The notes under the pieces are model-generated. The model did not search any database and was not told the origin of the DNA. It saw only the letters and a program-made list of their open reading frames with translations. A stretch of DNA of 64,000 bases from Cellulomonas sp. HZM. GTDB lineage: Bacteria; Actinomycetota; Actinomycetes; Actinomycetales; Cellulomonadaceae. Each line of letters begins with the position of its first letter. Position 1 is the stretch's first letter. The stretch spans positions 1-64,000 of the forward strand of contig NZ_JEOE01000002.1 in assembly GCF_000708885.1 (NCBI RefSeq), given 5' to 3'. Shown here piece by piece: positions 1,609-8,036 of the stretch. A program made the translations under genes and the position numbers.

Positions 1609-2700
1609 TCAGCGAGCGATGCGCGCCGCTCCCACGGCTGCGAGCTCGCCCAGACGCGACAACGCGCGGAAGTACTTCTTGCGGTAGCCCCCGGCCAGCA
1701 TCTCCGCGGAGAACAGCGCACCCGCCCCGGCACCGCCGAGGAGCACGGAGATGTCGCGGTCGTAGAGCCGGTCGACGAGCACGACGACCCGCAGCGCCAC
1801 GTCCTGCGTCGGCACCGGGCCGAGGCCGGTGATCGCCGCGAGGCCGACACCGTCGAGCAGCGCACCGTACCGACTCGGGTGGACGCGGCTCAGGTGCTCG
1901 AGGAGCTGGGCGAACCCGTCGAGAGTCACGGCGCCCGCGACGTGCGTGCTCGCGTCGTCGGCCCGGAGCCCGGCGACCGCCGCACGCACGTCGTCGTCCG
2001 ACAGCACCGCCTCGTCCGTGCGGACCGCACGGTGCCGGTAGTCCTCCCCGTCCACGCGCGTGACCTCGAACCGCGAGGACAGCGCCTGGATCTCACGCAG
2101 GAAGTCGTCCGCTGCGAACCTTCCCTCGCCGAGCGCGTCCGGCAGCGTGTTGGACGTCGCCGCGAGCGCGACCCCACGATCCGCTAGCTCGCGCAGCAGC
2201 CGCGACATCAGGACGGTGTCCCCCGGGTCGTCGAGCTCGAACTCGTCGATGCACACGAGTCGGTGCGCGGCGAGCGCCTCGACGGTCGGCAGGAATCCGA
2301 GGGCGCCCACGAGGTTGGTGTACTCGACGAACGTGCCGTAGGCCGTGCGCTCGGTGCCGACGGCGTGCGCGAGCGATGCGAGCAGGTGCGTCTTGCCGAC
2401 GCCGAACCCGCCGTCGAGGTAGATCGCCACCGGCTCGGCACGGCGCAGCAGCCGACGCCGACCCGCGGCGTCGATCTGGTCCGCCGCGCGTCGCAGGCGG
2501 GTGACCGTCGTCGCCTGCGAGCCGAAGCGCGGGTCGGGGACGTACGAGTCGAACGATGCGCCGGCGAAGTGACGAGGCGGGACGAGCTCGGCGACGAGCC
2601 GGTCGGCCGGCACGTGCGGCAGCCGGCCGACGAGGGCAGGTGCCGCAGCGTCGTCGGTCGCACGGGGCTGCGCCGGACGCTGGTCGGGTGCGAGGCTCAC
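1609..2700 (-). CDS. zapE: Cell division protein ZapE (AFG1-like ATPase)
   Basis: 363 aa from a GTG at 2700. P-loop ATPase of the ZapE/AFG1 family, which in other bacteria acts at the division site with FtsZ; in actinobacteria its role is less studied. Walker A is GGFGVGKT (residues about 97-104), Walker B is LVCIDEF (about 148-154), followed by a sensor-like region with TSNTLPDAL. The N-terminal ~25 residues are a Pro/Ala-rich tail. The start was chosen because a TACCCT hexamer lies 8 nt upstream of this GTG, the pattern of leaderless transcripts seen repeatedly in this window; the frame stays open to an ATG at 2835 but that extension is low-complexity. It is transcribed away from the sulfate operon. 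Confidence 0.88.
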   Translation of the reverse strand: MSLAPDQRPAQPRATDDAAAPALVGRLPHVPADRLVAELVPPRHFAGASFDSYVPDPRFGSQATTVTRLRRAADQIDAAGRRRLLRRAEPVAIYLDGGFGVGKTHLLASLAHAVGTERTAYGTFVEYTNLVGALGFLPTVEALAAHRLVCIDEFELDDPGDTVLMSRLLRELADRGVALAATSNTLPDALGEGRFAADDFLREIQALSSRFEVTRVDGEDYRHRAVRTDEAVLSDDDVRAAVAGLRADDASTHVAGAVTLDGFAQLLEHLSRVHPSRYGALLDGVGLAAITGLGPVPTQDVALRVVVLVDRLYDRDISVLLGGAGAGALFSAEMLAGGYRKKYFRALSRLGELAAVGAARIAR

Positions 2701-2708
2701 GGTGACCC

Positions 2709-2714
2709 AGGGTA
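2709..2714 (-). promoter_or_regulatory. -10 hexamer TACCCT of zapE, leaderless type
   Basis: On the minus strand TACCCT is separated from the GTG start by 8 nt, so the transcript would begin at or next to the start codon. Confidence 0.5.
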
Positions 2715-2864
2715 CGTACGCGGCGCGATCATGGGAGGCCGCGCGCGACGTGGTCCCCGCCACACGTCCGCCGACCGAACCGTGCGACGACGGCGCGTGA
2801 CCGACGCGCCCGCCCGCGCGGAGCGCGATGATCACGGCCCTTCAGCCGCGCTCCGGGCAACGCA

Positions 2865-2906
2865 GTGAGACGGACCGTTGTCCATACTTCGGCGCACTCG
2901 TCTCAC
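2865..2906. promoter_or_regulatory. Inverted repeat upstream of the sulfate reduction operon
   Basis: Perfect 7-bp arms GTGAGAC (2865-2871) and GTCTCAC (2900-2906) flank 28 bp that contain a CATACT hexamer (2883-2888), a plausible -10 for the rightward transcript. The arms could be half-sites for a repressor of sulfur genes, or pair in RNA if transcription starts further upstream. The GAGAC/GTCTC core is loosely reminiscent of the McbR-type boxes of corynebacteria, but the spacing is much longer, so the regulator is unassigned. Confidence 0.35.
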
Positions 2907-3019
2907 ATGTCGGAAGAGCGGTTCCGGTGATGCGGATCGTCTGTCAGCCTCGTCACGTGACCCCCTCGAGCGCCCCCCGCTGCTGTCGTGGCGGAGCCGT
3001 GCGCGCTCTCGGCGGTCAC

Positions 3020-3052
3020 ATGTGCATGTGCTGCTGTCAGCGGAGCCTCTGA
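3020..3052 (+). CDS. Poly-cysteine leader peptide (candidate cysteine-sensing uORF)
   Basis: Ten codons, ATG to TGA, reading MCMCCCQRSL: four Cys codons in the first six, three of them consecutive (TGC TGC TGT). It lies 113 nt before the sulfite reductase start. The same frame is open back to an ATG at 2930, which would give a 40-residue peptide with three more Cys (one CC pair), so the exact start is uncertain. Poly-cysteine uORFs upstream of sulfur-assimilation genes have been described in mycobacteria as cysteine-responsive attenuators: when Cys-tRNA is scarce the ribosome stalls on the Cys codons and downstream expression rises. The gene context here (Cys biosynthesis operon, hairpins between uORF and first gene) fits. 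Translation itself is not shown by the sequence; only a weak GGCGG precedes the ATG. Confidence 0.7.
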   Translation: MCMCCCQRSL

Positions 3053-3076
3053 CCCGCCCCGTCCCCCCAGATCCAC

Positions 3077-3121
3077 GGGCGCGCGGTCCGCGCCCCATGG
3101 TGACGTCCTCGCCGGACGTCA
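3077..3121 (+). promoter_or_regulatory. Tandem hairpins in the sulfate operon leader
   Basis: Two perfect stems follow the poly-Cys uORF: GGGCGCG/CGCGCCC with a 5-nt loop (3077-3095), and TGACGTCC/GGACGTCA with a 5-nt loop (3101-3121). They start 25 nt after the uORF stop codon. Their position suits an attenuator or a switch between alternative foldings, set by where ribosomes stall on the uORF. Confidence 0.55.
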
Positions 3122-3142
3122 GGGTGCAGCCGCACGTCCACG

Positions 3143-3157
3143 ACCTTCTCCGGAGGT
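3143..3157 (+). promoter_or_regulatory. Hairpin sequestering the Shine-Dalgarno of sulfite reductase
   Basis: ACCTTC and GGAGGT pair as a 6-bp stem (one G-U) around a 3-nt loop, burying the entire GGAGG (3152-3156) that lies 9 nt before the ATG at 3166. Opening of this stem could be the output of the leader. Confidence 0.45.
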
Positions 3158-3165
3158 AGCGCCAC

Positions 3166-4824
3166 ATGGCGCAGACCCGCATCGCACCCCCCGCGGCCCG
3201 CAACGAGGGCCAGTGGGCCTTCGACCAGCGCGAGCCCCTCAACGGCAACGAGCAGTTCAAGCAGGACGACGACGGGCTCAACGTCCGTCAGCGCATCATC
3301 GACGTGTACTCGCGTGAGGGCTTCGCGTCGATCGACCCGAACGACCTGCGCGGCCGCATGCGCTGGTGGGGCCTGTACACGCAGCGCAAGCCCGGGATCG
3401 ACGGCGGCAAGACCGCGACGCTCGAGCCGCACGAGCTCGACGACGAGTACTTCATGCTCCGGGTGCGGTGCGACGGCGGGGCGCTCTCGCTCGAGCAGCT
3501 GCGGACGATCGCGCAGATCTCCGTCGAGTTCGGCCGGGACACCGCCGACATCACCGACCGTCAGAACATCCAGCTCCACTGGATCCGCATCGAGGACGTC
3601 CCGACGATCTGGGAGCGGCTCGAGGCCGTCGGGCTCTCGACGCAGGAGGCGTGCGGCGACACCCCGCGCGTCGTGCTCGGCTCCCCCGTCGCGGGCGTCG
3701 CGGCCGACGAGATCATCGACGGCACGCCCGCGGTCCGCGTGATCGCCGAGAACTTCATCGGCGACCCGCGCTTCTCGAACCTCCCGCGCAAGTTCAAGAC
3801 CGCGATCTCCGGCTCGCCGCACCACGACGTCGCGCACGAGATCAACGACGTCGCGTTCATCGGCGTGGTGCACCCCGAGCTCGGCCCCGGCTTCGACCTG
3901 TGGGTCGGGGGCGGGCTGTCCACCAACCCCAAGCTGGGCGTGCGCCTCGGCGCCTTCGTCTCGCTCGAGCGGATCCCCGAGGTGTGGACCGGTGTCGTCG
4001 GCATCTTCCGTGACTACGGCTACCGCCGGCTGCGCACCCGCGCCCGCCTGAAGTTCCTCGTCGCGGACTGGGGCGCCGAGCTGTTCCGGCAGGTGCTCGA
4101 GGGCGAGTACCTCGGCTACACGCTGCCCGACGGGCCCGAGCCTCCGCCGCCGCCGACGGGCCGCCGCGACCACGTCGGCGTGCACCCGCAGGTCGACGGG
4201 AACTTCTACGTCGGTGCCGCGCCCACGGTCGGTCGCGTGTCGGGCCCGCTGCTCCTGCGGCTGGCGGACGTCATGGAGCGCGCCGGCTCGGACCGGCTGA
4301 GGCTGACGGTCGAGCAGAAGCTCGTCGTGCTCGACGTGGCGCCGGACCTGGTCGACGAGCTCGTCGAGGGTCTCGAGGACCTCGGGCTCGCCGTGCGCAG
4401 CGCGTCGACGTTCCGTCGCGGGACGCTCGCGTGCACCGGCATCGAGTTCTGCAAGCTGGCGATCGTCGAGACCAAGGCGCGCGCCACGGCGCTCGTCGCC
4501 GAGCTCGAGGACCGGCTGCCCACGTTCGACCAGCCGATCACGATCAACCTCAACGGCTGCCCCAACTCGTGCGCGCGCATCCAGACGGCCGACATCGGCC
4601 TCAAGGGTGCGCTCGCCGGCGGCGAGGACGGCTACCAGGTCCACCTCGGCGGCGGGCTCGGGCTCACGAGCGGCCTCGGGAAGACCCTGCGCGGCCTGCG
4701 CGTTCCCGCTCACGAGCTGCCCGACTACGTGGAGCGCGTGACGCGACGTTTCGACGAGCAGCGCACCGAGGGCGAGCTGTTCGCCCAGTGGGCAGCCCGG
4801 GCCGACGAGGAGGACCTGCGATGA
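3166..4824 (+). CDS. nirA: Ferredoxin-type sulfite reductase (siroheme, [4Fe-4S])
   Basis: 552 aa with a GGAGG ribosome site 9 nt upstream. Catalyses six-electron reduction of sulfite to sulfide in the cytoplasm. Two half-repeats of the nitrite/sulfite reductase fold are present. The coupled siroheme/[4Fe-4S] centre is bound by Cys423 and Cys429 (CTGIEFC) and Cys465 and Cys469 (CPNSC). Tyr71 (GLYTQR) and Cys163 (EACGDTP) sit where M. tuberculosis NirA has the Tyr-Cys cross-link of assimilatory sulfite reductases, which favours sulfite over nitrite. A Pro-rich stretch (about 325-331) lies between the halves. First gene of a six-gene overlapping operon with cysH, cysD and cysN, which supports the sulfite assignment. 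Family members are often annotated as nitrite/sulfite reductase; the symbol follows the mycobacterial homologue. Confidence 0.93.
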   Translation: MAQTRIAPPAARNEGQWAFDQREPLNGNEQFKQDDDGLNVRQRIIDVYSREGFASIDPNDLRGRMRWWGLYTQRKPGIDGGKTATLEPHELDDEYFMLRVRCDGGALSLEQLRTIAQISVEFGRDTADITDRQNIQLHWIRIEDVPTIWERLEAVGLSTQEACGDTPRVVLGSPVAGVAADEIIDGTPAVRVIAENFIGDPRFSNLPRKFKTAISGSPHHDVAHEINDVAFIGVVHPELGPGFDLWVGGGLSTNPKLGVRLGAFVSLERIPEVWTGVVGIFRDYGYRRLRTRARLKFLVADWGAELFRQVLEGEYLGYTLPDGPEPPPPPTGRRDHVGVHPQVDGNFYVGAAPTVGRVSGPLLLRLADVMERAGSDRLRLTVEQKLVVLDVAPDLVDELVEGLEDLGLAVRSASTFRRGTLACTGIEFCKLAIVETKARATALVAELEDRLPTFDQPITINLNGCPNSCARIQTADIGLKGALAGGEDGYQVHLGGGLGLTSGLGKTLRGLRVPAHELPDYVERVTRRFDEQRTEGELFAQWAARADEEDLR

Positions 4825-4961
4825 CCGAGCGCGCCGTCCCCTACTTCTGCCCGTTCTGCGCGAGCGAGGACCTGTTCCCCGCTGGCGACAAGCACGGCGA
4901 GTGGGAGTGCCGCTCGTGCGCACGGGTGTTCGGGTTGCGATTCGTGGGGGTGAAGGCATGA
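4821..4961 (+). CDS. 46-aa CxxC protein between sulfite reductase and cysH
   Basis: Starts at the ATGA overlap with the sulfite reductase stop and ends in an ATGA overlap with cysH, so it is translationally coupled on both sides. The short protein has CPFC near residue 10 and CRSC near residue 33, the two halves of a rubredoxin-like zinc ribbon, and an Arg/Val-rich C-terminus. From memory, a small protein of this kind also sits between these genes in Streptomyces. Function unknown; the position suggests a metal-binding or redox accessory of sulfite or APS reduction. It is easily missed by gene finders because of its length. Confidence 0.75.
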   Translation: MTERAVPYFCPFCASEDLFPAGDKHGEWECRSCARVFGLRFVGVKA

Positions 4962-5683
4962 CGGTCACCGACCGGAAGCACGAGAGCGAGGTGCGGGACC
5001 TGCCTGCGCTGCGGCAGCTCGCCGAGCAGGCGGGCCGCGAGCTCGAGGGTGCGCACCCGAAGGAGATCCTCGCGTGGGCCGCCCGCACGTTCGGGCAGGA
5101 CGTGGTGGTCGCGTCGTCGATGGGCGACGAGATCCTCGTGCACATGGCCGCCAAGGCAGCGCCGGGCATCGACGTCGTGTTCCTCGACACCGGTTACCAC
5201 TTCGCGGAGACGCTCGGCACGCGCGACTACTACGCCGAGTTCACCGACGTCACGCTGCGCACGATCCTGCCGCTCGCGACGGTCGAGCAGCAGGATGCCG
5301 AGCACGGTCCGCGACTGCACGACCGCGACCCCAACCTGTGCTGCGCACTGCGCAAGGTCGAGCCGCTCGAGCGCGCGCTCGCGCCCTACACCGCATGGGT
5401 CACCGGCATGCGCCGTGAGGACGCCCCGACGCGCACCGACATCTCGGTCGTCGGCTGGGACGACAAGCGGCACATGGTCAAGCTCAACCCCCTCGCGGCG
5501 TGGACGCAGGAGCAGGTCGACGAGTACGTCGAGGCCGAGCACGTGGTCCTCAACCCGCTGCGCCAGGTCGGCTACACGTCGATCGGCTGCGCCCCCTGCA
5601 CGCGCGCCGTGGCCCCGGGCGAGGACCCGCGGGCCGGTCGCTGGTCCGGCACCTCCAAGACGGAATGCGGTCTGCACACATGA
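4958..5683 (+). CDS. cysH: Adenylyl-sulfate (APS) reductase
   Basis: 241 aa. Reduces activated sulfate to sulfite using thioredoxin. The N-terminal PP-loop-like nucleotide site has SSMGDE (about 53-58). Cys128-Cys129 and Cys211/Cys214 (CAPC) form the CC...CxxC set that binds a [4Fe-4S] cluster in the APS-using class; enzymes restricted to PAPS lack these residues. The catalytic Cys237 lies in the C-terminal ECGLH motif. Use of APS agrees with the absence of a cysC (APS kinase) gene in this operon. Start ATG at 4958 overlaps the previous stop by 4 nt and the 3' end overlaps cysD by 4 nt. Confidence 0.95.
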   Translation: MTVTDRKHESEVRDLPALRQLAEQAGRELEGAHPKEILAWAARTFGQDVVVASSMGDEILVHMAAKAAPGIDVVFLDTGYHFAETLGTRDYYAEFTDVTLRTILPLATVEQQDAEHGPRLHDRDPNLCCALRKVEPLERALAPYTAWVTGMRREDAPTRTDISVVGWDDKRHMVKLNPLAAWTQEQVDEYVEAEHVVLNPLRQVGYTSIGCAPCTRAVAPGEDPRAGRWSGTSKTECGLHT

Positions 5684-6584
5684 CGCTCTCCCCCACGTTC
5701 ACCCAGCTGGACGCACTCGAGTCCGAGGCGGTCCACGTGATGCGCGAGGTCGCGGGCGAGTTCGAGCGTCCGGTGCTGCTGTTCAGCGGCGGCAAGGACT
5801 CGATCGTGATGCTGCACCTGGCGCGCAAGGCCTTCTGGCCCTCGCCGGTGCCGTTCACGCTCATGCACGTCGACACCGGCCACAACTTCCCGGAGGTCAT
5901 CGACTACCGGGACGACGTGGTCGAGCGGTACGGCCTGCGCCTCGTCGTCGCGAGCGTCCAGGACGCCATCGACGACGGCCGCGTCGTCGAGCGCCCCGAC
6001 GGCTCGCGCAACCCGTTGCAGACCGTGCCCCTCCTCGACGGCATCACGCAGCACCGGTTCGACGCGGTGTTCGGCGGCGGACGCCGCGACGAGGAGAAGG
6101 CCCGCGCCAAGGAGCGGGTGTTCTCCCTGCGCGACGAGTTCGGCCAGTGGGACCCGCGCCGTCAGCGCCCCGAGCTGTGGGACCTGTACAACGGCCGCCA
6201 CAAGCCCGGCGAGCACGTGCGCGTCTTCCCGCTGTCCAACTGGACCGAGCTCGACGTGTGGCGCTACATCGAGCGCGAGGAGATCGACCTGCCGTCGATC
6301 TACTACACGCACGAGCGCGAGGTGTTCCTGCGCGACGGGATGTGGTTGGCCCCCGGGGACTGGGGCGGCCCGCGCGCCGACGAGGTGCTCGAGACCCGCG
6401 CCGTGCGCTACCGCACGGTCGGCGACATGAGCTGCACCGGCGCGGTCGAGTCGGTCGCGTCGACCGTCGCCGACGTCATCGCCGAGGTGGCGGCGAGCCG
6501 CCTCACCGAGCGCGGGGCGACGCGCGCCGACGACCGGGCCTCCGAGGCCGCCATGGAGGACCGCAAGCGTGAGGGCTACTTCTG

Positions 6585-6585
<1 letters not shown>
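5680..6585 (+). CDS. cysD: Sulfate adenylyltransferase subunit 2
   Basis: 301 aa. With CysN it forms ATP sulfurylase, converting sulfate and ATP to APS and PPi. The PP-loop SGGKDS is at residues 36-41, followed by HVDTGHNFPE and, further on, FGGGRRDEEK, typical of the PAPS reductase/ATP sulfurylase fold. It begins in an ATGA overlap with cysH and its stop shares one base with the cysN start (TGATG). Confidence 0.96.

Positions 6586-8032
<1,447 letters not shown>

Positions 8033-8036
<4 letters not shown>

Follow-up and report, generated by a model that had tools for sequence, protein, structure and literature searches.

The stretch of DNA analysed here, a window of 64,000 nucleotides from Cellulomonas sp. 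HZM, carries a sulfate-reduction operon whose first gene encodes a sulfite/nitrite reductase family hemoprotein (SiR), and this gene is preceded by a short open reading frame (ORF) ending in a run of Cys codons. An earlier note on this DNA had proposed a cysteine-sensing leader at this place, and the peptide it read there, MCMCCCQRSL* at 3020–3052, is present letter for letter; reading back in frame to ATG 2930 adds three Cys residues, likewise as noted. The mini-ORF is unique in the window, being on both strands the sole ORF of 8–60 codons with an ATG or GTG start that has at least three Cys among its last nine residues. Comparison of related genomes points to a conserved Cys leader that keeps its frame, its start and its position, and that is followed by a conserved RNA stem and a hairpin at the start codon of SiR. 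The features of this region are the following.

2901–2914, + strand: conserved motif TCTCAnnATnCGGA, located ahead of the leader promoter, a possible activator site
2945–2950, + strand: -10-like box CAGCCT, 6 nt before the leader start codon
2957–3052, + strand: leader ORF of 31 codons, VTPSSAPRCCRGGAVRALGGHMCMCCCQRSL, with six Cys and a GTG start, probably leaderless
3023–3037, + strand: Cys tract TGC ATG TGC TGC TGT, the proposed stalling site
3053–3076, + strand: C-rich spacer after the leader stop, a possible Rho-loading region
3077–3095, + strand: element B, the 5' arm of the conserved long stem, alternatively a hairpin of its own
3101–3121, + strand: apical hairpin H2, TGACGTCC-TCGCC-GGACGTCA
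3122–3139, + strand: element C, the 3' arm of the long stem
3143–3157, + strand: local Shine-Dalgarno (SD) hairpin ACCTTC-TCC-GGAGGT, pairing the GGAGGT at 3152–3157
3159–3172, + strand: start-codon hairpin GCGCC-ACAT-GGCGC, holding the AUG at 3166
3166–4824, + strand: SiR, the first gene of the operon

With SiR as protein query, 63 of 81 genus genomes gave a match; in 55, the own genome among these, the match covered nearly the full length, and the upstream DNA of all 55 was read. One locus at a contig edge (L106) was left out, which leaves 54 readable genus genomes; the ten closest named relatives are all Cellulomonas species. A poly-Cys leader precedes SiR in 49 of the 54, the own genome included; conservation of the Cys run in relatives, which the earlier note had asked to check, is seen. 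Forty-eight of these leaders were detected by script, and one more (L125, with four Cys) was read from its sequence; counts out of 48 are given without L125 and counts out of 49 with it, and the window is always included. The distance from the last Cys codon to the stop is exactly four codons in 49/49 sequences (48/48 in the set without L125). Leader peptides differ greatly in sequence and length. What stays fixed is the distance from Cys to stop, the frame, the RNA element further downstream and the placement ahead of SiR.

Inspection of the upstream alignment also revealed where the leader begins. The column that holds GTG 2957 in the window shows GTG in 47 of the 49 leader-bearing sequences and ATG in the other 2, and the reading frame from this column reaches the Cys codons in all 49, being kept through length changes. 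In 35/49 sequences there is no in-frame ATG, GTG or TTG upstream of the start column before a stop is met; the window belongs to the other 14, with ATG 2930 and GTG 2927 remaining open upstream. We therefore rejected ATG 3020 and ATG 2930, the starts considered in the earlier note, which are probably wrong, since the conserved start column is that of GTG 2957 and has no other in-frame start upstream before a stop in 35 of the 49 sequences; the window leader probably starts at GTG 2957. An A at -11 and a T at -7 relative to this column occur in 47 of the aligned 49 sequences, window included, and as the count was taken at the alignment column it is free of the preference for CT 5–7 nt upstream that entered the choice of starts. 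SD-like sequence before the leader start was seen in 1/48 genus sequences. Because a -10-like A/T pair lies six bases before the GTG/ATG start column and SD sequences are rare, a leaderless 31-codon ORF is suggested, and judged by this signature the leader transcript is probably leaderless. A simple sigma-70 scan found no consensus promoter at the leader, and CAGCCT likewise does not match the sigma-70 consensus. Further upstream, the TCTCAnnATnCGGA motif keeps a nearly constant distance from the leader start across the aligned genus sequences and is possibly an activator site. By eye, a CAyATnTCG-like repeat is visible ~22 nt further upstream of this motif, and a CAnnATnCGGA-like stretch precedes several poly-Cys leaders in other genera of the family.

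Between the leader stop and the SiR start lie 102–128 nt in the genus sequences. In isolation, 3077–3139 folds as one long stem between B and C with -40.8 kcal/mol, and the minimum-energy fold of the isolated element contains a B:C stem of 13–18 bp in 48/48 genus sequences. The two local hairpins described in the earlier note, 3077–3095 (7 bp, -13.2 kcal/mol) and 3101–3121 (8 bp, -12.2 kcal/mol), are both present; however, the first of them competes with the long stem, where its bases are paired with 3122–3139 instead. The third hairpin of that note, at 3143–3157, does pair the SD sequence of SiR, but its stability is low in most sequences (at or below -1 kcal/mol in 36/48, at or below -3 in 5/48). 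At least four pairs can form across the SiR start codon in 48/48 sequences.

When the genus sequences were aligned by clade, 94.2% of cells were paired in clade 1 (32 sequences) as compared to 24.0–54.4% when the alignment was slid, and 92.4% as compared to 26.5–58.1% in clade 2 (15 distinct of 16 sequences). In clade 1, three B:C pairs have changed on both sides where 0.8 would be expected. In clade 2, four pairs have changed on both sides (1.3 expected), all of them in H2 and the SD hairpin, but one slid version had five. We also asked how well each arm fits its own partner as compared to a partner swapped between sequences, using approximate segments. For H2, 0/2000 permutations were as good as the own arms overall and 4/2000 within clade; for B:C, 2/2000 were as good overall; and for the SD hairpin, 171/2000 overall and 6/2000 within clade. 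The start-codon hairpin is without covariation support because its bases hardly vary.

A covariance model of the element (R1) was built on the 32 clade-1 sequences. In the own genome R1 recovered the window element at E 1.5e-12, the next candidate being at E 0.53 (150 of 10580 first-look candidates were scored). Across 121 family genomes, under stricter filters, R1 gave 12 matches at E <=0.01, five of them in the genus and seven in another genus. Five of these seven loci were read, and in 5/5 the match is immediately followed by SiR and preceded by a poly-Cys leader, whose GTG or ATG start has a -10-like context of similar kind; a long stem plus a start hairpin was also obtained by folding in 5/5. 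When R1 was run against nine other-genus leaders of the family, the five genus loci that lack the leader (L132–L136) and the cysK locus described below, no convincing match was obtained, the best being at E 0.53.

To look beyond the genus, 60 SiR loci of the order were read upstream, out of 141 non-genus genomes matched, with all 14 loci of the same family included. A poly-Cys ORF precedes SiR at 9 of the 14 non-genus family loci, as compared to 0/60 in antisense controls; in the printed family cases an ATG follows ~7 nt after a TAnnnT box, as judged by eye. Another kind of leader, with an RHVDL motif, was found at 9/46 loci outside the family and 0/14 inside it, and an RHVDL..C leader lies upstream of SiR in 63/69 Streptomyces-type loci (L012–L081; one further locus was too short). 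Examples of the RHVDL type match the NCBIfam model NF042934 above its cut-off and NF042936 (leader_Ms4527A) below it; one Streptomyces SiR leader and the leader of L132 exceed the NF042934 cut-off. The window leader gave 0 families at E up to 10 when compared with NF042936 and NF042934, and the extended form of the window leader and four extended relatives matched 0 NCBIfam families. L132 and L133 (genomes G013 and G027) carry hybrid leaders with an RHVDL-like motif and a Cys pair near the end, and PRHV would be read, in many Cellulomonas leaders, from the start codon together with the bases that precede it. As a speculation from these sequences, the GTG start of the leader might be the remnant of an RHVDL-type leader. 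In the passage that lists them, the reannotation of S. lividans names eight leader peptides, none of them for cysteine (PMC8079986); the 'metL' peptide given there before metNIQ ends in CMCRRMCAF and is Cys-rich in appearance (PMC8079986).

A second leader was found in the own genome. The cysK gene (locus L227, on contig C11 of genome G000) is preceded by a Cys-rich leader ORF reading ..TCCRCL*, which ends 236 nt before the profile match. In a survey of 30 cysK loci, out of 78 matching genus genomes, a Cys-rich leader ORF is present at 26/30 loci, most of these ending in CCRC plus one residue; of the four loci where none was seen, two offer little sequence upstream. The antisense controls were positive in 1/30. 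As 10 of the 26 leaders were printed with an SD sequence before the start, the cysK leader is probably not leaderless, unlike the SiR leader. The cysK leader is separate from the SiR leader, and cysteine leaders are therefore present at at least two loci. Three other cysK-like loci of the own genome (L228–L230) and its sulfate-binding protein gene showed no convincing poly-Cys leader, the two Cys/Ser-rich ORFs at L230 being chance-like in look. A DNA-pattern search for further poly-Cys leaders in the own genome gave 42 matches as compared to 69 in the reversed control, that is no enrichment. On contigs C4 (184028 bases) and C14 (88158 bases) of Cellulomonas sp. HZM the pattern matches form mirror pairs whose coordinates sum to the length + 1, which probably reflects an inverted duplication of each contig, an assembly artefact.

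In the operon behind the leader, SiR is followed by a 46-aa protein with four Cys, CysH, CysD and CysN. SiR is above the cut-off of its Pfam model and below the cut-offs of the NCBIfam equivalog models, and it was therefore named via Pfam and its neighbour genes. Adjacent stops and starts overlap throughout the operon, the starts being inferred; the small protein sits between SiR and CysH and overlaps both. The genes following SiR are these.

4821–4961, + strand: small zinc-ribbon-like Cys4 protein of 46 aa, in overlap with the SiR stop; Pfam matches below cut-off
4958–5683, + strand: CysH (phosphoadenylyl-sulfate reductase family), start placed by overlap with the upstream stop
5680–6585, + strand: CysD (sulfate adenylyltransferase small subunit), start placed by overlap
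6585–8036, + strand: CysN (sulfate adenylyltransferase large subunit)

How might the leader act on this operon? We propose, at a probability of roughly 55%, that the conserved leader is a cysteine-starvation attenuator, in which a leaderless peptide reports charged tRNA-Cys and in which stalling favours the B:C stem and operon expression. Translation of the ORF at 2957–3052 would report how much charged tRNA-Cys is available. With ample cysteine, ribosomes would pass the Cys tract to the stop, and the leader RNA would be free between ribosomes; the region of the Cys codons could then pair downstream, and the SiR start would be closed in the start-codon and SD hairpins. When cysteine is scarce, a ribosome would stall on the Cys codons and cover the RNA up to about the last codons of the leader, B would pair with C as one long stem, and expression of the sulfate-reduction operon would be favoured. 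Leader translation, the response to cysteine and its direction, and an action of the stem on initiation are steps that we infer. Ensemble folds agree with the central step: in the free RNA the Cys tract pairs with C (mean 2.80 pairs), and in the stalled state B:C pairing rises (B3:C from 2.72 to 3.82). Removal of the part covered by a stalled ribosome thus leads to more B:C, which is the pattern expected of an attenuator where stalling favours B:C. One sequence (L104) entered these folds, those behind the opening costs given below and the length figures with a leader form that is too long, its start lying too far upstream.

Comparison strongly supports the idea of a cysteine-sensing leader as far as the Cys codons, the frame, the start column, the Cys-to-stop distance, the RNA element and the additional leader at cysK are concerned. 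The start codons proposed earlier are probably wrong. The release of the SD sequence, by which stalling was thought to free the ribosome site, drew no support from a simple thermodynamic test, though it may still occur. Several observations weigh against the proposed attenuator. The cost of opening the SD or the start region, free as compared to stalled, shifts in one direction in 24/48 sequences and in the opposite one in the other 24, without consistent change; with C blocked the SD becomes costlier to open in 28/48 and cheaper in 11, a slight lean in the wrong direction, and the start region is costlier in 18/48 and cheaper in 19. Ensemble folding therefore gave no support to an unmasking of the SD by stalling, and a role of C as anti-SD is not supported either, given the slight opposite trend with C blocked. 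No co-evolution is seen for the pairings of the Cys tract with C and of the leader tail with B, where 1004 and 1998 of 2000 permutations, respectively, are as good as the own partners; B:C loses its advantage within clades (1124/2000 permutations as good), and no B:C pair has changed on both sides in clade 2. Shuffling gave modest z-scores for the element (mean -1.65, below -2 in 14/48), in DNA that is very GC-rich. R1 missed at least two clade-2 genomes that bear the leader (G029 and G048). Five of the 54 readable genus genomes (L132–L136), which are deep-branching and have an SiR 69–72% identical, are without this leader, and outside the family only 2 of the 46 loci read carry a poly-Cys run before SiR.

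No terminator-like site, that is a GC-rich hairpin with a U-run, was found in 2700–3400, and we rejected an attenuator with an intrinsic terminator because no such site lies between leader and gene. Likewise, the Rfam families gave 0 matches above the gathering score in the window, and a known Rfam element as the identity of the leader RNA was rejected on this ground. Two read-outs possibly stand, namely translation initiation and Rho-dependent termination. In favour of initiation stand the SD hairpin, the start hairpin with its conservation, and what is known as a precedent from mycobacteria. Rho is favoured by the spacer behind the leader stop, which is 73% C and 11% G at a length of 17–25 nt (48 genus sequences), and by the same idea having been put forward for other cys leaders, those of mycobacteria and P. 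acnes, in the passages of PMC1262725 that deal with them. In such an attenuator, Rho would load on the C-rich 3053–3076 after translation of the leader and stop transcription before or in the first gene, unless a stalled ribosome or the B:C stem prevents this. The lack of intrinsic-terminator-like sites and the folding tests, which gave SD unmasking no support, speak for it as well. However, a ribosome stalled at the last Cys codon should reach ~10 nt further, judged from the size of a ribosome footprint, and would fall short of the C-rich stretch; C-rich stretches are also common in high-GC genomes, and the conserved start-codon hairpin suggests control at initiation. We regard Rho-dependent attenuation as a possible, though less probable, alternative.

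A switch that acts on the start codon instead of the SD was also considered. Here, B would be an anti-start element, closing the start unless C captures B upon stalling. B is complementary to GGCGCAGACC, which comprises the last base of the start codon and SiR codons 2–4, the best duplex running to 10 pairs in 23 of the 48 sequences, to 9 in another 20 and to 8 in the other 5, and a B window is the strongest partner of the GGCGCAGACC region in 37/48. Some of this complementarity is automatic, since B and the start hairpin share arm sequences. Moreover, the match between B and the start shrinks to ~5–6 pairs in the other genus, and nested folding gives it little weight and the wrong direction (0.29 free, 0.76 stalled), so that this variant appears doubtful from the sequences at hand.

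It is also conceivable that the leader works by termination and reinitiation, its translation feeding ribosomes to the first gene or blocking them there in the absence of any RNA switch. The distance from leader stop to SiR start stays within the range given above, and the relevant part of PMC4633059 discusses, for mycobacteria, how small ORFs may be coupled to the genes behind them; but with more than 100 structured nucleotides between stop and start, and with the conserved stem left unexplained, we consider this quite improbable. Still less probable is a Cys-rich peptide that acts in trans, such as by sensing redox state or metals, with the RNA features being incidental: Cys-rich small proteins can bind metals, but the peptide varies in sequence and length while the Cys-to-stop distance, frame, RNA element and position stay fixed, and dissimilar poly-Cys peptides precede cysK as well as SiR in other genera of the family. 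That the region is merely a promoter with a transcription-factor site, its Cys run a by-product of GC-rich sequence, is just as improbable: the motif at 2901–2914 does suggest transcriptional control too, but an activator site and an attenuator can coexist, and the window holds no comparable ORF elsewhere, the antisense controls of the order-wide survey are empty and the frame is kept through length changes.

Returning to the cysteine-starvation attenuator, our analysis extends cysteine-codon attenuation, which papers citing the M. smegmatis work report as experimentally demonstrated there, as a strong prediction to Cellulomonas and to further genera of its family; the predicted attenuator precedes the sulfate-reduction operon, and cysK has a leader of its own. 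A tiny gene rich in Cys codons probably lets this soil bacterium sense a shortage of cysteine. The 49 aligned genus sequences provide a conserved stem and a start hairpin, which makes the choice between an initiation and a Rho read-out testable by mutation.

Leaders of this kind have precedents, although among the open-access papers searched we found no report of one for Cellulomonas. For Mycobacterium spp. and P. acnes (cys operon) and for B. longum (cbs), leader peptides containing runs of Cys, with no obvious terminators, were predicted in the passages concerned of Seliverstov et al. 2005 (PMC1262725), and the view of the earlier note that organism and operon differ from the mycobacterial case is weaker than claimed to the extent that poly-Cys leaders before cys operons were predicted beyond Mycobacterium in that work. 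The window leader shares with these predictions the run of Cys codons near the stop and the lack of an obvious terminator, and differs in that a start hairpin and a conserved stem lacking a U-run come after it. As in the classical trp and his attenuators, a leader peptide with a codon run is combined with possible alternative RNA pairings, but the window is without their U-run terminator. Conserved Cys-rich leaderless upstream ORFs in mycobacteria are described in the relevant part of PMC4633059, and cysteine-dependent attenuation or regulation by polycysteine ORFs in M. smegmatis is cited from Canestrari et al. 2020 in passages of PMC13236596, PMC9094748 and PMC9031893. With these M. smegmatis ORFs, the window leader has in common the leaderless short ORF of Cys codons before cysteine/sulfur genes and the occurrence at more than one locus; a cysteine-dependent speed of the ribosome is what those passages report as proposed for M. 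smegmatis. It differs from them in belonging to another actinobacterial family, in its GTG start and in the lack of an NCBIfam leader match, and its function is a prediction. NCBIfam holds NF042936, the 'Ms4527A family Cys-rich leader peptide', and NF042934 (cis_reg_atten), a 'putative leader peptide'; the peptides of both contain Cys, as does that of the window, which has a Cys run, no RHVDL motif and no match to either. Against this background, some of the features that mark the mycobacterial type were found, namely a short ORF with a Cys run near its stop before a cysteine/sulfur gene, a leaderless signature and more than one such gene in the genome. Rather than as a member of the NCBIfam leader families, the window leader is by its architecture best filed among the polycysteine leader attenuators.

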